Source: a virus
Length of the DNA: 20,746 nucleotides
Reading direction: 5' to 3' (one strand)
Virus record (IMG/VR): IMGVR_UViG_3300026321_000027
Location: 1-20,746 of that record
The position numbers and the translations under genes are program-made. Shown one piece after another: positions 9,291 to 20,746 of the stretch (its first letter is position 1; each line of letters begins with the position of its first letter). The notes below the pieces were generated by a model. The model saw only the letters and a program-made list of their open reading frames with translations. It was not told where the DNA came from and did no database searches.

Positions 9291-9298
9291 TATTTAGG
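9291..9298 (-). promoter_or_regulatory. Possible late promoter overlapping the YHYH stop codon (CCTAAATA)
   Basis: Minus strand reads CCTAAATA, one base off the NATAAATA late consensus (C for A at position 2). It overlaps the TAA stop (9296-9294) of the YHYH gene and lies about 20 bases before the ATG at 9270. The gap has no good Shine-Dalgarno sequence. It is a weaker candidate than the site at 5895-5902. Confidence 0.3.
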
Positions 9299-10889
9299 TG
9301 CCATCATATGTTTGTAATGTAGAGTCCATAGTAGATGAGGTACTATCGAATCTATTATCGGTGCTACCACCATCTCCAGCACCAGCAACAGTCAATATTG
9401 CTGCATTAGAGTCCAATGGTGAGTTAGATGCTGCTTGTGGTGCCCCTATAGGACCAGCGATCCTACAACGATACCTATACCCAGTCATATATGACAATGC
9501 AGTCACTGAATATGTGTTAGTTGTTGCTCCAGTTACAGCAGCAAATGCAAATCCACCATCAGTAGATCTATACCACTGGAATGCCACAGGACCATCTTCT
9601 GGTGATACAAGTTTAGTAACAGTGAATGTAGCAGTCTGACCTGCGTTAACTGTAGCATTCTGTGGTTGTAGACTGAATGATAATACTGGTGCAGGACCAT
9701 CTCCAGCACCTCCTCCACCGCCACCACCAGCAGGTGCCTCACTAGTGAAGGTTGTATCTATAGTTTCTCTAGTAGTATTACCAATAATGAATGGAAACTT
9801 AGTAATGTTTACATTAGTTTCATCTACTGTAAGGAAATATGCATAGGTACCATCCTGATATTCAGGTGTAATAGCAAATCTTCCATTATGAGTGTCTAAA
9901 TCACCTGTCCCTTCAACAAACTCATAGTCCTCCATGAGAGTACCAGCAGGTGGATTGTCACTTGTATTACCATAATCAGGTCTTCCTGCTACTTCTGTGT
10001 CTCTTACAGCATAACCAGTCCTCATTGTCCTAGTACCACTCAAATTATCGAATGGTGTGTCATATCCATAAGGTCCATAGATGGGAAATCCATCAAATGC
10101 TATGCCAACTATCTTAGAATGACCATCAGGATGACGAATATTGTCTCCATTATACTGAGTTGCACCATAATAATCGTTATATGATGCCATAGATGACCCT
10201 GCTTTCCAACAATCTAGGAAATGTGGGTCATGATAGTGGTAAATTCCCTGTTGTTCAGGGTGTCCACCACAAGAATCTTCTCCAGAGTTGACAAAAGTGA
10301 GATCACCAGCAGCAACCCAACTAAAACCAGAGGGAGGATTGAGTCCACCACCAGCAGAAGGGTTAAAAACAGCAACTCCATTACCAGCAACGCCAATTTG
10401 ACCTAGAGGAGTCTCAATTCTTGCATTTCTTTGATCAAAATACTCCATTGTGCCACTAACAGGAGTGGGTGCTTGTGTTGCTACAATGAAATCTAATGTA
10501 GTATCAGTAGATAACCAACACTCACCATCAATTGAAGTGAATGTTGTGCTTCTAAAGATGAATTTTTGCTTTAATCCGTCACTAAAGACGACCATTATCT
10601 CATCATTAACAGCAATACTTGGATTTGCACCAGTGAATAACGTTAAGTCATTGACTGAGATGGTCGCTCTCCGAATATATCCGTCATGCGTATATCCATT
10701 ATTATCAAATGTGCGAGCAATTCCAAATGTTCCTCCACGGTATAAGAAGTCATGATCCCAGTCTTTCTCCTGTATTGTATTAGGGTTATTATCATTAGGG
10801 AACGTGCCAGGAACCACAGGAGCAGGGAGGGCATCCGATGCTACTGTGATTATCTTGGTACTATTATCGTAGGAAGCTGTTGCTGCCAT
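9294..10889 (-). CDS. YHYH-domain virion protein with Ig-like domain
   Basis: A 531-residue protein. The N-terminal half contains the YHYH domain (PF14240, function unknown): SCGGHPEQQGIYHYHDPHFL with the name motif at 217-220, then HPDGHSKIVGIAFDGFPIYG at about 252-271. It is rich in His, Asp and aromatic residues with at least two Cys nearby, so metal or ligand binding is plausible but unproven. A seven-glycine linker at about 390 leads to an Ig-like domain at about 401-500 (SLQPQNATVNAGQTATFTV, FQWYRS, YRYRCRI, AAILTV), followed by a Ser/Thr/Asp-rich tail. The ATG at 10889 comes 15 bases after the giant gene's stop; the leader ATAAAAGTAAAAACA has no strong Shine-Dalgarno sequence. A virion surface or host-binding role is inferred from Ig-like domains in other tailed-phage structural proteins. 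Confidence 0.92.
   Translation of the reverse strand: MAATASYDNSTKIITVASDALPAPVVPGTFPNDNNPNTIQEKDWDHDFLYRGGTFGIARTFDNNGYTHDGYIRRATISVNDLTLFTGANPSIAVNDEIMVVFSDGLKQKFIFRSTTFTSIDGECWLSTDTTLDFIVATQAPTPVSGTMEYFDQRNARIETPLGQIGVAGNGVAVFNPSAGGGLNPPSGFSWVAAGDLTFVNSGEDSCGGHPEQQGIYHYHDPHFLDCWKAGSSMASYNDYYGATQYNGDNIRHPDGHSKIVGIAFDGFPIYGPYGYDTPFDNLSGTRTMRTGYAVRDTEVAGRPDYGNTSDNPPAGTLMEDYEFVEGTGDLDTHNGRFAITPEYQDGTYAYFLTVDETNVNITKFPFIIGNTTRETIDTTFTSEAPAGGGGGGGAGDGPAPVLSFSLQPQNATVNAGQTATFTVTKLVSPEDGPVAFQWYRSTDGGFAFAAVTGATTNTYSVTALSYMTGYRYRCRIAGPIGAPQAASNSPLDSNAAILTVAGAGDGGSTDNRFDSTSSTMDSTLQTYDGT
9390..9690 (-). other. Ig-like domain of the YHYH protein
   Basis: Residues about 401-500. The framework 'QP.NATVNAGQTATFTV ... 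FQWYRS ... YRYRCRI ... AAILTV' is that of a phage Ig-like domain. The strand-B Cys is replaced (FTV) while the strand-F Cys is present (YRC), so no canonical disulfide can form. It is clearly related to the domain ending the neighbouring giant protein. Confidence 0.7.
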
Positions 10890-10901: not shown

Positions 10902-10909
10902 TATTTAGA
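10902..10909 (-). promoter_or_regulatory. Possible late promoter overlapping the giant gene's stop codon (TCTAAATA)
   Basis: Minus strand reads TCTAAATA, one mismatch (position 2) from the NATAAATA late consensus. The TAA stop (10907-10905) of the giant gene lies inside it, and the YHYH ATG follows 12 bases after the octamer. It has the same arrangement as the site at 9291-9298. Activity is inferred only. Confidence 0.3.
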
Positions 10910-13900
10910 TGTCATCAAAGATGAGGTTAGGTGTAAAGTTGCTGATTACAGTTGCACCCGTCTGGACGCTTAAGATAGCGGACAGTGAGTAAACTGGAGT
11001 TGCGCCAGCAGCGGTTATAGCAACACGATACTCATCACCATCGTCTGCTTGTTGTGTAGCATTTGTGTTGTATGTTGCTTGGTTAGCACCAATGATGTTG
11101 CTCCAAGTCTGTGTGCCATACTCCTTCTTCTGCCACTGATAATTCATTGTCTGACCATTAGTTACGGTAGTAACGACTGTGAATGCAGCAGTCTGACCTT
11201 GGTTAACAGTTACGTTAACTGGGTCTGTAGTGATTGCAATCGTGCCAGGAGTAATTCCTCCTCCACCACCTTCTTGTCCACCAGGTCCTTCACCTGCGAG
11301 TACGTCAAATCCACCGTTAATTGGACCACCTACAGGAGGTGTAAAGTCATCTGGGACTACGTTATCGATAGCAACTATCGGTGAAGTATAACCAACACCA
11401 GATGTCTTAACATCAATACGTGTGATACCCATCAATGCCTTAAGTTTTCCGTCAAATCCTGAAGAGGAGATAACGTCAACGTTAGGACGGTCAGTGTAAC
11501 CATCACCAGGATTGGTTAGTACTGCGTTGGTAATCTGACCAGAGGTTATTGCTGAAATAGCATCAGCGTTTCTACCCTTAACAGATCCAGTGTATTCAAA
11601 TGTGATCAGTGAGTTAGAAGACTCAATTAGAGCAACTTCTCTTGCAAATTCTTCACCCTCGATGTTAAGTAGGTCACCTGCCTCAATTGGAGGTACGACT
11701 GTTGCTGCGATAACGTCTGCGTCAGATCCAATGTATGAGAAACCAACGAAGGTTGATCCCGCACGTGGGACTTCAGCAAAGATTATACGTGAACCAACGA
11801 TCTCGTATGCGACTCCAGGTTCCTGAATGATACCGTTAAGTGAAACGATAATGTTATTCTCAGGACGTATAGTGTTAGAAGAAACACCTTCAGTCAGTGT
11901 TAAGGAGTAGAATAATCCACCACGCTTAAGGTTGAAGGAAGATCTCAATGAGTCAAACTCGAAGGAGATATCATCTAACTGACGTAACTTACCAACGTAG
12001 TATCCGATAAATTCAGATCCAACTTCAGGTGCCTCAGCAAATTGTATCTTGTCAGAGAATGCAACGTAAGAAGCATTACCACCTGGAGGTTGTAGAATAC
12101 CATTAACGAATGCTAGTAAGTGACCAGCAGGATCTGGGAAGTATGCCTCACCGTTAGAAACGGTTAAGTCAAATATTGTTTGGACTCCATCAAATCCTCT
12201 GAAGTAACGATCAACTCTACCTTCTAGTGTGCGAGCAGAAGAAATACCTGCACCCCACTGGAAGTCAGACTTGAGTGACATGTTGTCAAGGAATGTGCCG
12301 TTAGCAGATTGTACCCAGATGGTAGCAGTAATACCTGCTTGCTCAATAGCAACAACCTGTGCGTAAGACTGATAATCAGTTGCAGTGTAACTTCCAACAG
12401 GAGCATAGATTGTTGGGAAGTTAGATCCCAATTCAATCTTACCAATGTTATTACCTGCCTGTGTTAAGTCAGTTAGAGGAGCACCGTTACCAACATCAAC
12501 TAAGTTAGCAATCCAGAGTTTGTGTGGTACTGGTGGGACTGCATTTGCATCTTCAGGTTGATACTTAGTAACTACAGCAGTGAATCCAGGATTCTTCTGC
12601 ACAGTACCTTGTAGGAGTGAAATTTGATCACCAACATTGAATGTGTCAGAGATACCAGTATCAATGATTGCTGTGCCTAGATTTAATTCTAGAGTTTGTG
12701 TACCATGTATCCACTGGTTAAGTTGTAACTGTGTACCACTGATACCCTTAATATCTAAAATGTAATCAGTAACACTACCGTAGATTACGTCTCCTGGTAT
12801 CCAAGGTTCCTCGATAGTTTCTACATCAATTGCAATTCTACCACCATCATTACCTGTGAGAGATCCAGACTTACTTGTGTAGAGGTCCATGTATGCTTCT
12901 ATAGCACCAACCTTACTGAAGAACCAATCGCCTGTAGCGAATGCTCCCTTCTTAACGTTGATTAAGAATCTATCTTCAGGAGTGCCAACTGTATGAATTG
13001 CACCACTATCAACACCTTCTAATACATCACCACTACTAATAGTACCAGCAATAGTATGAAGTTTCACGAATGATGTGCCATTCTCAGAATCAGGTTTCAA
13101 CATCTGTAATACAGATCCGTTATTAGCGGTTGCATTCTGGACTTGTGCTGATTCTCCATTTACGAACTGATCGTATGTACCTGGAGTTGTCTGTGCAGCA
13201 ACTGTTGGATAATGTGTAAAGAGTTTGTAGATCAAACCTTCGTTTGCTTGAATAGTGCCGATCTCAGCGTTAGCATTTGAGGTACTACCAAACACAACAT
13301 CAGCAGCATTGAATCCACCTTGTATTGGACATTCTGAAGTATCAGTTGCGAATGTAGCAGAAGTCCTAGGTACTCCATCTCTTCTATTAACAGAAAGTAT
13401 TTGAGATCCAGAGTTAGACTTATCTATTTGTAGAAGTCTGAATCTACCATCATGGATAAAGGAAGCACCAATTTCAAACCATTCAGCAGTACCAGTTAGG
13501 ACATAATAGTATTCCTGTCCAGTAAGACCAGATAGTGAATTCTCAGATGCTGGAATGTATGTTAATACATCACCACGACGGAAGTTATTTGGACGCTCAA
13601 TTCTAATTCTATACTCAGCACGATCATAACCTACATCAACTTCTGGGGTTAGACTTACTAGATCAGGATCAGTATTATAATCAATACCCATCTCATACTT
13701 GGTAACTCTATTAGTTGCGTCTGTAGATGCTACGAATGTTACTCTTGCTTCAGTTGGATACTGAGACATTTCTAGAGCAAACTCAATTGGGTTAAGTGAA
13801 GAGTCAATCATAAACTCAGCAGCTTCTTGATTCCACTCAAGTTTCTGTGGTGTCTCTATTGAATAAACATCATATGGATTCCATCCAGTAGATTCAAAGT

Positions 13901-16900
13901 CATACAATACACTCTTAGAATATTCACGAATTCTTGCTAAACAGTATATGAGATGAGTCCTTGTTACATTAGTGAATGCAATGAAGTTACCCTCACCGTC
14001 AAACCAGTCTTGTGTCAACTTGAATGATCCAGCATTACCTTCAGTAACTAAGTCGTATCTTAGTGCAGCAACAACATCATTAGCAAAATCAATTGTTAAG
14101 TTAGTAGTTGGATAAGATGTCTGAGTTTCAGCGAATGCTCTAGCAGTAATTGCTTGCTTGTTAAAGAGAATCATATTAGAAATTCTCTTACTGTTGTTTG
14201 ATCCGTTACCAAGTGCATCGGTAAATAGATCCATCAATGTGTCAATTGCTGACGTTACGTTATAGCAAGTACCTGACTGGAAGTCTGCGTTACTATTGTA
14301 TGGGAATGTCTTAGTTATAGTAGACAGATGATTTGTAGAAGCATTTGCTGCCTTATCAATTGTCTCTATAAAGATGTCTGCTAATGTATTAATAGCAGAT
14401 GCAGTTTCTTGACATGTTTGATTCCATGTGCCATTAGCATCTGATCCACCATTACTAGAATCGTAAGTGACAGTCTTATCTCTAATGACAACATCAGGTG
14501 TATACTTGACGGGCCAAATGATTGGCATTGTATAAGATCTACCAGCAACGTTACCAGGACTGGTAATAGCATCTGTTACTAATTGCATTAGGTTGCCAAT
14601 CTCAGCTTCTACACTAGCACCTTCATTACCTGTGTATTCCTCTGAAACTCTACGTGCACGATAGTATGATAGATCTGTCCTAAGTGGATATGCATAAGAC
14701 AATACTGATTGGACAGGTATTATCTTACCGTCAACGTAATCTGTTACACGAGGATATGTGTGCTGAGTAGCATTACTATCTTGACTACATGTGAATGTTA
14801 GTGAGTTACTATCAATCGTTATGGAGTCATCTGTGCGTAGACTATGACCAGCAACTGTAAAGGTTAATTGACCTGTAGTTGGCTCATAGTATGCATCAGT
14901 AGGTGTAAGTTGAGTACCATCATTAACTACGTTAATAGCACCAGTTAGAGCACTCACGAAGTTATGCTTATAGTTACCACCCTGTATTAAACATCCAGAG
15001 TTTGCACTCACGAATGTATGCTGGAATGTCTTACCAGCAGGTGATACACCTACGTTAATTCTTATCTTACCATCTTGGACTCTAATACCTTTCTCTATAC
15101 AAGATACAAATGTATGAGATCCCATGAAGTTGGTAGGAAGTGTATCTAACACTTGTACCTGGAATGTGTCAGTAGTTATGTTATGGACTGCCAACCATTC
15201 ATTGCTTGCATGATCTGTAGGTCTTGGATATAAGTGTGTAGTGCGATGAGCATCTAGATCACATGTAAATCCTAAAGCATAATCTTGTATGTAGATGTAA
15301 TCATTTGCCTTCCATATACCATCAGTCTTGGCAGATACAAAGTTGTGTTGATAGTTACCACCACCAATAACAGAACCAGGTATTGCACTGACGAATGTAT
15401 GATCGTAAAGGTTAGCAGTAGCAGCGATATTTACATCAACTGTAATCCAACCACTCTGTCTGTGTAATGTGTTATTCTTAAATCTTTCAAATGTATGAGT
15501 ATGGTTTCCACCAGCAGTAATAGCACCAGAAGTAGCAGAAGCAAATCTGTGTGTATGATTACCACTAACAGTGGATCCTACATTAACAGTAATTGTAGAA
15601 TTCTTCTTCTCTAATCCATCAGCAACAGCACTTACATATGTGTGTGCATAATCACCATTACCTCTTACTGTGCCTCGGATAACTGCACCTGTAACAACAG
15701 AATCAAACTGGTGAGTTGTAGTGTTAGGAGAAATTCCTACGTTTACATCAAATGTATTTGTCTGCTTATTAGAGATTGTTAACCAATTACCAGATTGAGG
15801 ATCTTGTGCTCTAGGATATGCATGAGTTGTAGCATAGTTGTCTTGCTGACACTTGAATACAATAGACTCATTCATAATCTGCACCTTATCACCATTCTCA
15901 AATGGGTGACCATTCTGGGTGATTGTCAATACACCTGTTGCAGGAGCATAGGCAGCAGTTGATGGAGTAAATGAATTCTCAGATCTTACAAATTGGTGAA
16001 GTGTTGTGTTACTTGACTTACCAACGTGCACTGTGATTGTATCAGCAGTAGCAGAAAGAATAGGTATAGAAGTATTATAGAATGGGTCAGTAGATCTTGG
16101 ATACTTATGCTCACTACCGAAGCTGTCAGCATTACACTTGAATACTAGTGACTCTTCCTCAATGTAAACTGCTTCATGTGCAAACTTAAGACCGTTAGTA
16201 ACAGCAGATACGAATGTATGAGCAGAAGTAACAGACTGAGGAGCAGATGATAAGACATTTACATCAAATGTATCTGTAGTGATGTTGCTAATGTTTAACC
16301 ACTTATCACTTGGATAATCAGTTGATCTTGGATATGCATGATTGTTAGTAGGATTATCAGCATTAGCGATACCAACTTGGAGTGTAATTGTTGTAGCAGT
16401 TGGGTTGGTTACTGCTAAGTTTGCTCCAGATGCAGGGTCGGTTGCTCTTGGATATGCGTGGTTAGTTGCATTACCGTCAGCAGCACAAGTAAAGGTTACA
16501 CCACCATTAACAATGGTAACTGTGTCAGCAGTTGTTAAACTATGTGATCCGATTTCTAAGACTAAAAGTCCAGTAGCAGGATCATATGTTGTACCAGCAG
16601 CTGCGGTGTATGTGTTACTACCATCATTGATAGCATTGTTAACACCACTTACAAATGCGTGAGTGCCAGTTGCAGCTTCACAATTGAAGGTTATAGATCC
16701 ATCGTCAAACTTAACTCTGTCTCCGATGACCATTCCGTGACTAGGGACAGTAGCTGTTAATACACCAGTTGTAGGATTATAAGCAGCATCAGTAAGTGTA
16801 GTTTGACCACCACCATTAAAGTTGTGAGCACCAATGGTGAGCACCATATCACCTGTAGTAGGTTCAAATGTTGCAGCAGAAACTAGGTAGTTAGCACGAG

Positions 16901-19900
16901 GTGTCTTACCAACGTTAACATCAAAGTTATTACCAGAAACATTAGAAATTTCTAACCACTTCTCTGAAGCATAATCTGTCTCTCTTGGATAAGAATGATT
17001 AGATGCATTGTTATCCATGTCACAAGTCATGACCAATGAATTGTCAGCAATTCTTACATGGTCACCATTTGCAAATGGGTTGTTAGCAACTGTTAGTGTT
17101 AATACACCAGTAGAAGCATTGTATGCAGCACCAGATGCTGAATACTTAGCATGACCTACTGCCTTGATTTCAATAGCATGATCGTATGCTCTATCTCTCT
17201 TCGCCTTAAGTCCATTATTAGCGAATGATTGGAAACTGTGTGTGAATGATCCACCAGCTCTTAGTGATCCTCTCTTAACAGCACCAACTCTTGCTCTCTT
17301 GAATGTATGAGCAGAGGTGTTTAGAGAAGGTATATTAGCACCTAATACTTGTACTCTGAATGTGTCATTAGATACGTTATCGATTGTTAACCACTTACCA
17401 CTTGCAGGATCACCATGTCTAGGATAAGAATGCTCAGTAGCATTATCATCTTTATTACATGTGAAGACTAATGAATTATCTTCAAACATGATCTGCTCAC
17501 CATTGGACATTCCATGACCAGCAAGAGTAACAGTCATAAGACCAGTACCACCACTGTATGAAATTGCGGTTGGAGTAAGTCCGACAGCAGGTTTGAATAC
17601 GTGAGTTGTAGTGTTAGAAGAAGTACCAACGTTAACTGTGATGGTGCTATCAGATACAGCAGTTACATCAACAGCATCTTGATATGCAGGGTCATCAGCA
17701 GAAGCACCACCAGTACCATTAGGACGTGGATAGAAGTGATCACTTGCATAAGAGTCCTGTCCACAAGTGAAGCAGAATGCTAATGCATTAATGTATACAG
17801 TATGTGCAGTTGTAATACCGTGGTCAGGACCAACAGTGATTACCATGTTACCGTTAGAAGGATTATATTCTACATTCTGAGGATCGAAACTCTTAAACTC
17901 AGACTTACCAACGAAAATCTTATATGTGTTAGCATCGATGTACTCAATAGGCTTCCACTTACCACTGATAGGATCAGAAGATCTAGGATAAGTCTTGTCA
18001 CTGGTACTTCCGTCCATTGTGCAACGCAAGGTTATTGCATTGTCATCAATCTTAACAAGAGATCCTTCATCTAATCCATGACCAGTAGAAGTAAGTGTTA
18101 AGTAACCTGTTACTCCATCGAATACAGCATTGGTTGGAGTGGAGTTATCAATTGTATTTCTTGGATATGCATGTGTAGATCCATAAGAGTCTTGACTACA
18201 CTCCATTGTGATTCCACCAGTAGCAATCTCTATACTCTGACCAACCTTAAGTGGATGAGTACCAACAGTGATTTCCATATCACCTGTTGTTGGTGTATAG
18301 TCTACATCTGTAGGTGTGTAACTAACAGCAGCAGTTGTGCCTACGTTAATATCAAATCCATCTGTAGATACATTAGAAATCTGTACCCACTTACCACTAA
18401 CAGGATCTGTGCCTCTAGGATATGCATGGTCACTAGAACCATCATCCATAGTGCAGGTCATATCCATAGAGTAATCATCAATCTTAATGTAGTCTCCATT
18501 TGAGAATCCATGCTTGGATACTGTCATTGCCAATACACCTGTAGATGGTGTGTAGGTAGCAGCAGTTGGAGTATGACGTGTTACACCATCATCAATGATT
18601 CTAAGTGAATTGTCATATGCAGGATCAGATGTCCTTGGATAGGTATGGTTAGATCCATTACTATCCATTGAGCAAGTGAATGTTAAAGCATCAGCAGCAA
18701 GTTTAATGCTGTCATTACCCTTCATCAAGGTAGCAACAGTTATACTCTGAGGTCTAGCAGATACAAAAGTATGAGTTGTAGTATTGCTAGAAGGTATGTT
18801 GAATAGTACCTGTATAGTAAATGTATCCTTAGTTACATTCTTAACTGTCATCCACTCATCACTATATGGGTCAGATGCCCTAGGATATGAATGGTTAGAT
18901 GCGTTACTATCTTGTGTGCAAGTAAATGTTACAAATCCATCTTCTACCTTAACCCTGCTACCATTCTTAAGACCGTGATCAGCAACAGTAAGTGTCATTA
19001 CACCTGTTGTTGGGTTGTAAGCAGCATTGGTTGGAGTAAGTTGTGCAGGAGCAACAAACTTGTGAGTGTAGTTACCACCAGTTGCAACTGTTGCTCTAAC
19101 AACAGCACCAGTAAGAGCACTTACAAATGTGTGAAGAGTTTGGTTGGTTGATGGTGCATTATCAAGTACCTTAACATCAAAGGTATCATCAGTTACGTTA
19201 GAAATAGGAATCCATGTATTGCCTACTGGATCACTAGCTCTAGGATAAGCATGATTAGATTGGTTACTATCCTGTAAACATGTGAATACAATTGAGTTAG
19301 TATTAAACTTAATACTCTCTCCATCCATGAATCCATGATGAGGAATAGTAACAGTCATCCAACCTGTTGTTGGATTGTATACTGCATTTGTTGGTGTATA
19401 TGCTTCACCATCTGCAACGAATGTATGGTTATATGCACCACCAACCTTCAGACTATTAGCACTAGAAGTTACATATGCGTGAGCAGTTGGATGAGTGATT
19501 TGACCATTACCGATATCAAGTATTATGCTACCAGTCTGTCTATGTAATGAATTGTTTGCAAAAGATACAAAGGTATGATCGTAAACATCATTTATACCAG
19601 ACTTGCCTACATGGACAGTGAAACTAGTATTAGTTACATTAGAAATAGGTAACCACTTAGCGAATGTAGGATCAGTCCTTCTAGGATATGTGTGGTTAGT
19701 AGCATTATTATCTTTTGTGCACTGTAAAGTTATTGCATTTTCGTCAATCATTACAAAGTCATTTGCTTTCCAAACAGCATCAGTGCCTATAGAAATAAGT
19801 TGATGGACTGTATTATTTGAAATAGCACCTTCACCTTGGAAGTTACCAACGTTAACATCGAATGAATTACTACCAACGTTGAATGCCTTCAACCACTTGC

Positions 19901-20746
19901 CACTAGCAGGGTCAGAAGATCTTGGATATGCATGGTTACTTCCATTACTATCTTGCTCACACTGGAAGACGAACTGTCCATCCTGAAGGAGTAGCATGTC
20001 ACCATTCTTAACGCTATGACCACTGAGATTGATTCTCATGGTACCTGTAGCAGGATAGAATGAAGCACCAGTTGGTGTCAGTGTGCTATGGTTAGCGAAG
20101 CTGTTACTCATAGTAACTACCATAGTACCAGCACTAGCATCATACTGGACGTTAGTTGGACTATGATCTGTCTTACCTACTTCGTAGATAGGAATATTTG
20201 TATCGAAGAAATGATCCTTCTTATGAGTAATACAATTTGCAGAAGCAGATACAAATGCATGGATTGTAGTATTTGTAGAAGGTATTACATCTAACACTTC
20301 TACAGTGAATGTATTAGAAGTAACATCATGGATCATCATCCACTTACCAGCAACAGGGTCTGTTGCTCTTGGGTATGTGTGGTTAGTTGCATTAGCATCC
20401 TTAGCACATGTAAATGTCAAGGAGTTATCAGCAATCTTAACGTAAGAGTATGGAAGGAATCCGTGATTATCAACAGTAAACTTAAGATGTCCTGTATTAG
20501 GATTGTAAGTAACGTCTGTTGGTGTGTGAGTTGTGCCAGGTCTAGGATATGCATGATTAGATCCATTTCCATCAGCACCACAAGTAAATGTTACTGCACC
20601 TTCGTCTAGTCTTACTGTATCTCCAGCATGACGTAGGCAATCAGCAACAGAAGTTGAATATGTATGATCGTAAACACCACCACTTACAATCTGTGCTCTA
20701 GTAATGCAGTTACCAACAGCACTAGAGAATAGGTGGGTTGTTGTAT
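10905..20746 (-). CDS. Giant modular repeat virion protein, N-terminus outside the window
   Basis: The reading frame is open from the right edge (first full codon at 20744) to TAA at 10907-10905, giving 3279 residues of an even longer protein. The TTG at 20420 is not a credible start: the same repeat pattern continues upstream of it. Residues 1 to about 2000 are a modular array: 'PTTGVMTVTV..HG...GD.VKI.DNSLTFTC', then C-x2-D-x5-H-x-YPR, then 'TDP.SGKWL.ISNVT..TF.VNVG', then 'HTFVSA'. About 2000-2300 is a more helical region with three 'AI..L.D.....I' segments. About 2300-3150 is beta-rich, with two 'VNGI(L/I)Q.PG' modules near 2880-3010 (12175-11720) and two 'GxGY..(R)P' repeats. A Gly-rich linker (11255-11300) precedes an Ig-like domain. 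It is upstream of the YHYH gene and resembles very large virion or fibre proteins of marine T4-like phages; a baseplate-fibre or adhesin role is inferred. Confidence 0.93.
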   Translation of the reverse strand, partial: TTTHLFSSAVGNCITRAQIVSGGVYDHTYSTSVADCLRHAGDTVRLDEGAVTFTCGADGNGSNHAYPRPGTTHTPTDVTYNPNTGHLKFTVDNHGFLPYSYVKIADNSLTFTCAKDANATNHTYPRATDPVAGKWMMIHDVTSNTFTVEVLDVIPSTNTTIHAFVSASANCITHKKDHFFDTNIPIYEVGKTDHSPTNVQYDASAGTMVVTMSNSFANHSTLTPTGASFYPATGTMRINLSGHSVKNGDMLLLQDGQFVFQCEQDSNGSNHAYPRSSDPASGKWLKAFNVGSNSFDVNVGNFQGEGAISNNTVHQLISIGTDAVWKANDFVMIDENAITLQCTKDNNATNHTYPRRTDPTFAKWLPISNVTNTSFTVHVGKSGINDVYDHTFVSFANNSLHRQTGSIILDIGNGQITHPTAHAYVTSSANSLKVGGAYNHTFVADGEAYTPTNAVYNPTTGWMTVTIPHHGFMDGESIKFNTNSIVFTCLQDSNQSNHAYPRASDPVGNTWIPISNVTDDTFDVKVLDNAPSTNQTLHTFVSALTGAVVRATVATGGNYTHKFVAPAQLTPTNAAYNPTTGVMTLTVADHGLKNGSRVKVEDGFVTFTCTQDSNASNHSYPRASDPYSDEWMTVKNVTKDTFTIQVLFNIPSSNTTTHTFVSARPQSITVATLMKGNDSIKLAADALTFTCSMDSNGSNHTYPRTSDPAYDNSLRIIDDGVTRHTPTAATYTPSTGVLAMTVSKHGFSNGDYIKIDDYSMDMTCTMDDGSSDHAYPRGTDPVSGKWVQISNVSTDGFDINVGTTAAVSYTPTDVDYTPTTGDMEITVGTHPLKVGQSIEIATGGITMECSQDSYGSTHAYPRNTIDNSTPTNAVFDGVTGYLTLTSTGHGLDEGSLVKIDDNAITLRCTMDGSTSDKTYPRSSDPISGKWKPIEYIDANTYKIFVGKSEFKSFDPQNVEYNPSNGNMVITVGPDHGITTAHTVYINALAFCFTCGQDSYASDHFYPRPNGTGGASADDPAYQDAVDVTAVSDSTITVNVGTSSNTTTHVFKPAVGLTPTAISYSGGTGLMTVTLAGHGMSNGEQIMFEDNSLVFTCNKDDNATEHSYPRHGDPASGKWLTIDNVSNDTFRVQVLGANIPSLNTSAHTFKRARVGAVKRGSLRAGGSFTHSFQSFANNGLKAKRDRAYDHAIEIKAVGHAKYSASGAAYNASTGVLTLTVANNPFANGDHVRIADNSLVMTCDMDNNASNHSYPRETDYASEKWLEISNVSGNNFDVNVGKTPRANYLVSAATFEPTTGDMVLTIGAHNFNGGGQTTLTDAAYNPTTGVLTATVPSHGMVIGDRVKFDDGSITFNCEAATGTHAFVSGVNNAINDGSNTYTAAAGTTYDPATGLLVLEIGSHSLTTADTVTIVNGGVTFTCAADGNATNHAYPRATDPASGANLAVTNPTATTITLQVGIANADNPTNNHAYPRSTDYPSDKWLNISNITTDTFDVNVLSSAPQSVTSAHTFVSAVTNGLKFAHEAVYIEEESLVFKCNADSFGSEHKYPRSTDPFYNTSIPILSATADTITVHVGKSSNTTLHQFVRSENSFTPSTAAYAPATGVLTITQNGHPFENGDKVQIMNESIVFKCQQDNYATTHAYPRAQDPQSGNWLTISNKQTNTFDVNVGISPNTTTHQFDSVVTGAVIRGTVRGNGDYAHTYVSAVADGLEKKNSTITVNVGSTVSGNHTHRFASATSGAITAGGNHTHTFERFKNNTLHRQSGWITVDVNIAATANLYDHTFVSAIPGSVIGGGNYQHNFVSAKTDGIWKANDYIYIQDYALGFTCDLDAHRTTHLYPRPTDHASNEWLAVHNITTDTFQVQVLDTLPTNFMGSHTFVSCIEKGIRVQDGKIRINVGVSPAGKTFQHTFVSANSGCLIQGGNYKHNFVSALTGAINVVNDGTQLTPTDAYYEPTTGQLTFTVAGHSLRTDDSITIDSNSLTFTCSQDSNATQHTYPRVTDYVDGKIIPVQSVLSYAYPLRTDLSYYRARRVSEEYTGNEGASVEAEIGNLMQLVTDAITSPGNVAGRSYTMPIIWPVKYTPDVVIRDKTVTYDSSNGGSDANGTWNQTCQETASAINTLADIFIETIDKAANASTNHLSTITKTFPYNSNADFQSGTCYNVTSAIDTLMDLFTDALGNGSNNSKRISNMILFNKQAITARAFAETQTSYPTTNLTIDFANDVVAALRYDLVTEGNAGSFKLTQDWFDGEGNFIAFTNVTRTHLIYCLARIREYSKSVLYDFESTGWNPYDVYSIETPQKLEWNQEAAEFMIDSSLNPIEFALEMSQYPTEARVTFVASTDATNRVTKYEMGIDYNTDPDLVSLTPEVDVGYDRAEYRIRIERPNNFRRGDVLTYIPASENSLSGLTGQEYYYVLTGTAEWFEIGASFIHDGRFRLLQIDKSNSGSQILSVNRRDGVPRTSATFATDTSECPIQGGFNAADVVFGSTSNANAEIGTIQANEGLIYKLFTHYPTVAAQTTPGTYDQFVNGESAQVQNATANNGSVLQMLKPDSENGTSFVKLHTIAGTISSGDVLEGVDSGAIHTVGTPEDRFLINVKKGAFATGDWFFSKVGAIEAYMDLYTSKSGSLTGNDGGRIAIDVETIEEPWIPGDVIYGSVTDYILDIKGISGTQLQLNQWIHGTQTLELNLGTAIIDTGISDTFNVGDQISLLQGTVQKNPGFTAVVTKYQPEDANAVPPVPHKLWIANLVDVGNGAPLTDLTQAGNNIGKIELGSNFPTIYAPVGSYTATDYQSYAQVVAIEQAGITATIWVQSANGTFLDNMSLKSDFQWGAGISSARTLEGRVDRYFRGFDGVQTIFDLTVSNGEAYFPDPAGHLLAFVNGILQPPGGNASYVAFSDKIQFAEAPEVGSEFIGYYVGKLRQLDDISFEFDSLRSSFNLKRGGLFYSLTLTEGVSSNTIRPENNIIVSLNGIIQEPGVAYEIVGSRIIFAEVPRAGSTFVGFSYIGSDADVIAATVVPPIEAGDLLNIEGEEFAREVALIESSNSLITFEYTGSVKGRNADAISAITSGQITNAVLTNPGDGYTDRPNVDVISSSGFDGKLKALMGITRIDVKTSGVGYTSPIVAIDNVVPDDFTPPVGGPINGGFDVLAGEGPGGQEGGGGGITPGTIAITTDPVNVTVNQGQTAAFTVVTTVTNGQTMNYQWQKKEYGTQTWSNIIGANQATYNTNATQQADDGDEYRVAITAAGATPVYSLSAILSVQTGATVISNFTPNLIFDDI
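10960..11250 (-). other. C-terminal Ig-like domain of the giant protein
   Basis: About residues 3166-3262 of the visible fragment, behind the linker GPGGQEGGGGG. The framework 'DPVNVTVNQGQTAAFTV ... YQWQKK ... DGDEYRVAI ... AILSV' parallels the Ig-like domain of the YHYH protein. Neither canonical Cys is present. A 17-residue tail ending NLIFDDI follows. Confidence 0.7.
14200..14630 (-). repeat. Three helical 'AI-x2-L' segments in the giant protein
   Basis: Between the repeat array and the beta-rich C-terminal part are three related predicted helices: AEIGNLMQLVTDAI, ETASAINTLADIFIETI and NVTSAIDTLMDLFTDAL. The second and third are each preceded by a Cys (NQTCQE, GTCYN) and lie about 52 residues apart. 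They look like an internal duplication and could form a helical hinge or coiled bundle between two beta regions. Confidence 0.5.
14748..20549 (-). repeat. Array of 19 C-x2-D-x5-H-x-YPR boxes in the giant protein
   Basis: The YPR codons begin (plus-strand left coordinate) at 14748, 15222, 15810, 16095, 16326, 16446, 16983, 17418, 17724, 17982, 18159, 18414, 18633, 18879, 19239, 19680, 19920, 20367 and 20541. Spacings run from 120 to 588 bases, all multiples of three. Seventeen of 19 copies keep the whole pattern with exact internal spacing. One has Lys for His (17982), and one lacks the Cys half (16326). Linkers between boxes are built from 'TTGVMTVTV', 'ISNVT', 'HTFVSA' and 'GG-x3-H' pieces in varying order. 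Confidence 0.85.

Follow-up and report, generated by a model that had tools for sequence, protein, structure and literature searches.

A repeated Cys/Tyr-Pro-Arg hairpin, predicted within an FCCH-like barrel, in the giant baseplate/tail protein of a T4-like marine cyanophage

The giant protein encoded in the stretch of DNA analysed here (20,746 nt, hereafter the window) would be a baseplate-wedge/tail-fibre protein carrying a repeat of ~100 residues, of which the recurrent C-x2-D-x5-H-x-Y-P-R signature (the box) would be the conserved hairpin. Each unit is predicted to be a small FCCH-like beta-barrel with the box as hairpin, and we consider it probable that Cys and Tyr-Pro-Arg, along with an Asp three residues past the Arg (D57 in unit numbering), make up the structural core of that hairpin in barrels repeated along the baseplate/fibre protein. 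An earlier note had proposed a shared structural or chemical job for the signature; the structural part is borne out by residues that lie in a confidently predicted hairpin under purifying selection, while the chemical part, taken as a Cys/Asp/His metal site, is not.

Gene cluster and virion setting

The window is a baseplate/tail gene cluster of a T4-like marine cyanophage, a single cluster on the − strand. A frame without stop (10905..20744, −), open from the window edge, encodes 3279 aa, the C-terminal part of a giant protein of the baseplate/tail, identified through phrog_701, phrog_18802, phrog_5342 and phrog_1276 and by synteny with P-RSM6; the 5′ end of the gene falls outside the window and the repeat domain occupies aa 1-2010 of the window protein. 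Beside it lie a protein with the YHYH domain (PF14240, E 3.6e-36) and then a Pfam T4_gp9_10_N protein, with a 626-aa protein (phrog_22827 and phrog_708), gp8 (PF09215) and a phrog_358 protein further on. The order giant, PF14240, T4_gp9_10_N, phrog_708-like, gp8 is the giant/(YHYH)/gp9-like/gp8 order expected for a Kyanoviridae-type giant, its gp6 side being known from relatives. In S-SM1 and S-TIM4 the giant adjoins gp9, with gp8 further on, and in S-SM1 it comes directly after gp6. P-RSM6, with gp25-like, wedge and giant in succession, has the same gene order as the window and is the only organism with a DNA match to the giant gene (77% over 10%); its giant of 8573 aa (HQ634193 103907-129628, annotated as hypothetical) has 18 profile-detected units and 57 Cys. 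The YHYH protein (9294..10889), flanked by the giant and the gp9-like gene, has weak Ig-like matches at its C-terminus, and the end of the giant gives a weak Ig match in Pfam as well.

Evidence for a place in the virion comes from S-SM1, whose protein SSM1_102 (note T4-GC969) has two units and is located between gp6 and gp9. The 41 proteins that PMC3037559 lists as detected when S-SM1 virions were purified include T4-GC969, so the repeat family is a virion component, and we infer the same for the giant of the window. A tblastn search with the repeat region matched 324 of 50,697 phage records, and a count of the repeat itself gave 321; in both cases all the records are named Synechococcus, Prochlorococcus, Cyanophage or Marine virus.

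The box signature in the window protein

As the earlier note had stated, 17 of the 19 boxes containing YPR are exact, spanning 14748..20582, and 2000 shuffles of the window protein returned 0 matches. A degenerate DNA pattern recovers the same 17 boxes, all on the − strand, with no match in the window on the + strand and none with a reversed-pattern control; six-frame translation of the window gives the strict signature in these 17 places only.

Named by their position in the window protein, and all on the − strand, the strict boxes begin with aa 55 (20541..20582), 113 (20367..20408), 262 (19920..19961), 342 (19680..19721) and 489 (19239..19280). Next is aa 609 (18879..18920), the box of the 103-aa unit that was modelled alone (18732..19040), followed by aa 691 (18633..18674). 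The four-unit block that was modelled together (17520..18575), whose order and spacing are kept in related contigs, has strict boxes at aa 764 (18414..18455), 849 (18159..18200) and 994 (17724..17765) and a variant with Lys for His at aa 908 (17982..18023). Further strict boxes lie at aa 1096 (17418..17459), 1241 (16983..17024), 1420 (16446..16487), 1537 (16095..16136), 1632 (15810..15851), 1828 (15222..15263) and, in the last unit, 1986 (14748..14789).

The second exception, at aa 1460 (16326..16367), is a hybrid without Cys in which a V-G strand, the one that precedes THTFVSA elsewhere, replaces the F-x-C strand and is joined to the second half of the box. The same hybrid in one relative suggests, as far as sequence can tell, that a unit's two hairpins may be interchangeable. 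Conversely, a further F-x-C strand, the nineteenth (aa 1353-1364, Cys at aa 1355; 16653..16688), has the Cys without the D/H/YPR box. A single Cys per unit, as previously claimed, is accurate for the box strand, but the first 2010 aa carry 25 Cys in all, of which 18 belong to boxes. Between units, at 15459..15572 (aa 1725-1762), there are short HTF/HTH repeats (GNHTHRF, GNHTHTF), which include the only two HxH of the window protein (aa 1730 and 1748), outside the boxes.

Conservation among relatives

A family profile (A1) seeded by the 10 of 19 window box units that have a regular layout returned at least 1555 unit matches, at least 1276 of them non-redundant, at a minimum of 90 loci (77 on viral contigs, from the best 80 matches, and 13 on genome contigs). 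Among the matches listed from the 1276 non-redundant units, Cys41 is present in 1084 of 1084, a count given by a profile seeded with Cys-bearing window units, which may miss relatives without Cys. Among the same listed matches, conservation reaches 100% for Pro53, 99% for Tyr52 and Arg54 and 97% for D57, compared with 91% for D44 and 78% for H50, the latter being Lys in 18%; outside the box, G13 (96%), Y8 (89%), H22 and F39 (both 88%) also stand out. One locus, the 188-kb contig NZ_RMVE01000006.1, filed under the flavobacterial genome of Nonlabens xiamenensis 1Q3, is 98.9% identical to Cyanophage P-TIM40 (188,632 b) over the 12.2 kb tested, which suggests that cyanophage DNA contaminates that assembly.

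Two counts in which Cys was not required, made on the same loci as the profile set, gave a similar picture among the matches listed: a pattern for the upstream strand found Cys in 444 of 444, and Cys stood at position −11 in 922 of 1007 YPR contexts. Inspection of 70 of the other 85 contexts showed mostly loop-length variants with the Cys kept, the minority without Cys being of the V-G strand type plus a few unrelated ones. Of 1020 distinct F-x-C...YPR hairpins among the matches listed, 776 are strict; the loop from C to YPR has 6 to 13 residues and in 946 hairpins exactly 10. Hairpins with loops of other lengths, C-TQGGGNHS-YPR and C-AFGGASGAAAQKS-YPR among them, retain Cys and YPR, lose Asp and often lack His.

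Of 14 named phages examined, 13 also have units (54 in all), with Cys in 54/54, Pro in 48/48, Tyr in 44/48 and Arg in 43/48, and with His 23, Lys 15 and other residues 10 in the 48 filled cells of the His column. For the fourteenth, S-CREM2, there was no unit in the stretch read and no box in three long tail fibre/wedge proteins (gp124 partly read). S-RIM2, S-RIM8, S-RIM12, ACG-2014a and ACG-2014b each have one unit place per record (E ≤ 1e-5), in which the Cys is kept; these five proteins have 11-16 Cys in total in the part read. In the named phages, loss of Arg goes with loss of D57 (both present 41, Arg only 2, Asp only 1, neither 5; Fisher p 6e-5, the cells being units and hence non-independent events). 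This table is preferred to that of the viral contigs (963, 31, 9, 4), which includes partial alignments that are not real units.

Predicted fold

The single unit, modelled with AlphaFold2 from 79 rows (alignment A3: four window units plus 75 rows of a 90-row list, which headed 310 entries drawn from 699 candidates), reached a mean pLDDT of 95.9 and a pTM of 0.87. The four-unit block, modelled from 36 rows (A2, from 38 block matches with duplicates and one 122-aa row excluded), gave 83.7 and 0.54. Over the box, the unit model has block means of 97 (residues 41-50) and 94 (51-60), and DSSP assigns a strand at 37-41, a three-residue helical turn and a strand at 50-52; the hairpin appears in the DSSP of both models. 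Columns 38-51, 40-49 and 44-48 covary, and the first two pairs share the same sum, which fits an antiparallel hairpin. Leu37, Phe39 and Cys41 would then face the same side of the hairpin as S/T48, His50 and Tyr52, a side-chain direction read from strand alternation and covariation, the models serving for confidence and DSSP.

Comparison of the unit model with solved structures by VIA-align pointed to two folds, all Z scores being below 8, the level below which a match may mean merely a common arrangement. E1 FCCH domains ranged from Z 7.2 to 5.5 over 70-74 residues (UBA6 7.2, with rmsd 2.6 and 72 residues aligned; UBA1 7.1), and the endosialidases of phi92 (residues 259-338, Z 6.9, 25% identity) and endoNF (427-506, Z 6.3, 23% identity) aligned over 77-78; the phage chains FCWL1 (Z 6.7) and N4 (Z 5.7) are also listed. 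With 70-78 of 103 residues aligned, approximately a quarter of the unit is extra. Foldseek against PDB returned no match at E ≤ 0.001 for the unit or the block, the latter giving poor matches only, most with rmsd > 15, and the BFVD matches of the block are headed by cyanophage structural proteins.

Relation to known families

That the signature belongs to no named family, as the earlier note had it, is nearly right: Pfam scans of the giant and of five units reached no cut-off, but in PHROG the whole window protein matches PHROG 701, 18802, 5342 and 1276 at E 5.6e-177 or better, and all 79 aligned units match these profiles at E ≤ 0.001. All four entries hold the repeat (1276 as function unknown, 5342 as tail fibre, 701 and 18802 as virion structural protein) and give no domain definition, fold or role for it. 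Weak Pfam matches among the 79 units were to E1_FCCH (PF16190) in 11 and to End_beta_barrel (PF12195), tied with Cthe_2159, in 7 (E ≤ 1, best 0.0048), with no End_beta_barrel match for the window unit scanned first; none of these would count as family membership. For E1_FCCH the best intact unit scored 12.9 bits and the best box-deleted one 13.9, against a cut-off of 29.5. Deleting the box from five units moved the E-value of E1_FCCH from 0.12 to 0.06 and that of DUF7243 from 0.023 to 0.003, with SH3_1 at 0.0052 in one unit, so little a gain that an insertion in FCCH is argued from fold and aligned length rather than from sequence.

The E1 FCCH domain is the best solved-fold match. It leaves ~30 of the unit's 103 residues unpaired, the box probably among them, and its enzyme context is absent here. 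The endosialidase beta-barrel, which the unit's predicted fold resembles and which is likewise in a phage tail protein, is nested in a propeller. It is a single barrel within a catalytic tailspike, whereas here tandem units with an extra hairpin lie in a baseplate giant, and Pfam detected no neuraminidase domain in the window protein. A sister module (GLAFTC...GVTTTIFPDG) occurs in tail fibres of the cyanophages S-SCSM1 and Sf-CH8, with further matches in ACG-2014f and S-PRM1. It shares the barrel strands, the F-x-C strand including its Cys, the aromatic-Pro second strand and PHROG 1276, but has a longer loop without D/H, and F-P-D-G where the units have Y-P-R-x-x-D. In S-PRM1 (MH629685 120887-121108) this module lies inside a protein that carries an endosialidase annotation, in keeping with the fold similarity to the endosialidase barrel.

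Other Pfam matches of the giant (Fn1_2, Ig_3, YmaF) were all below cut-off, and no PDB sequence matched the repeat region as a whole. The iota-carbonic anhydrase 7c5x (profile E 1.1e-4 and 0.014) was rejected, its best single stretch having an i-Evalue of 12 and a simple strand pattern, and BURRH and other PDB sequence matches were judged to be chance. A literature search, with most subscription journals outside its scope, found no paper on this domain.

Structural core and alternative readings

In the arrangement that we propose, the box hairpin would run from a strand SLTFTC through a short helical turn, which carries a D-x-N-x-S/T loop, into a strand xHxYPR, held to the barrel by the packing of Cys, Tyr, Pro, Arg and D57, with the loop shaped by D44 and S/T48 and with H50, exchangeable for Lys, on the same hairpin face. 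The joint loss of Arg and D57, the joint change of D44 and position 48 and the His/Lys exchange indicate a structural set rather than a three-ligand metal site. The units would be beads that lengthen and space a fibre-like virion arm, for which spacer or bead arm would be the simplest role of a run of barrels, and some may contact host surface glycans too. The odd point under a structural core is the never-replaced Cys: a plain core would rarely insist on Cys so strictly that no Ser, Ala or Val turns up in over 1000 copies, and this counts against the reading. A calcium-type D-x-N-x-S/T loop was also considered and is not supported, because loops of other length and composition occur.

Doubtful in our judgement is a glycan-binding array, in which each unit would weakly bind a host surface polysaccharide, the array giving avidity and the box forming the rim of the pocket. 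Of the two best solved folds, the endosialidase barrel has a known ligand: PMC12632334 counts it as one of the three sites at which the K1F tailspike binds polysialic acid, and glycan contact is conceivable on that account. The End_beta_barrel Pfam matches, weak as they are, point the same way. Against this, the other best fold, E1 FCCH, is not known to bind glycans, and the endosialidase-barrel match is below Z 8.

Disulfides from the invariant Cys, between units or between chains, or some other covalent bond locking the fibre once it is released into oxic seawater, are unlikely. Cys alone is never replaced, whether in the 1084 units and 444 strands among the matches listed or in the 54 of named phages, as a covalent role would have it, but alternation with Leu37 and Phe39 would turn it to the hydrophobic side, and its retention in the five proteins with a single detected unit means that it can do without a partner in the next unit, although these proteins have 11-16 Cys in the part read. 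Disulfides between neighbouring units are hence not a requirement. We give an equally low standing to the Cys as a free reactive thiol, a redox lock or a covalent link to Tyr, Arg or a partner chain, present one time in each bead of the baseplate arm, by which the arm would change state at the oxygen-producing host.

Still less probable is an iron or zinc site built from the Cys, Asp and His of each unit, or shared between neighbouring chains, which would make the virion a metal carrier, or 'Ferrojan horse'. Their spacing is fixed in 17 of the 19 window boxes, strand register would put Cys41, S/T48 and H50 on one hairpin face, and there is a precedent in PMC11705849, where the HxH of T4 gp37 binds iron and something similar is proposed for marine phages, likewise with repeated His in a tail protein. 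The boxes, in contrast, have no HxH, the two of the window protein lying elsewhere. Among the matches listed, D44 and H50 occur together in just 804 of 1072 Cys units; another 150 pair Asp with Lys, and the remainder have other combinations. With Lys replacing His in 18% of units, fewer than half of the filled His cells of the named phages holding His, Asp and often His missing from loop-length variants, and only 776 of 1020 hairpins strict, the three ligands are not all conserved. A metal bound by Cys, Asp and His, as suggested earlier, is thus not what the relatives show.

Finally, the codons of the invariant residues speak to the origin of the conservation. The codons of Cys, Tyr, Pro, Arg and Asp vary synonymously, both within the window and across 761 boxes from relatives (in the 761 boxes, AGA 468, CGT 243, AGG 37 and CGC 13 for R54, and TGT 640 and TGC 121 for Cys), so selection holds the amino acids and recent copying does not. 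Self comparison of the four-unit block gives 21-45% between units, spacing strings such as 73-85-59 are found again in other contigs, and in five of the six contigs compared the closest unit is generally, not always, the one at the same position of another contig, exceptions being contig L054 and, often, the fourth window unit. Kept order and spacing, closest same-position units and codon variation together make the invariance a matter of selection on the protein, and an artefact of units duplicated recently, or copied in concert, inside a single protein, which the tandem arrangement of the copies might suggest, can be set aside given how little the units resemble each other and how their codons vary.

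Implications

The attractive idea of a metal site fails when relatives are counted, and the Cys fixed in every one of the 1084 units among the matches listed leaves a clean question for the bench. If the models are right, a nameless motif would become a defined domain, ~100 residues long, in which a Cys/Tyr-Pro-Arg hairpin is inserted into a barrel of the FCCH/endosialidase type, and a curated profile of it would annotate many giants that are now recorded as 'virion structural protein' or 'hypothetical protein'.
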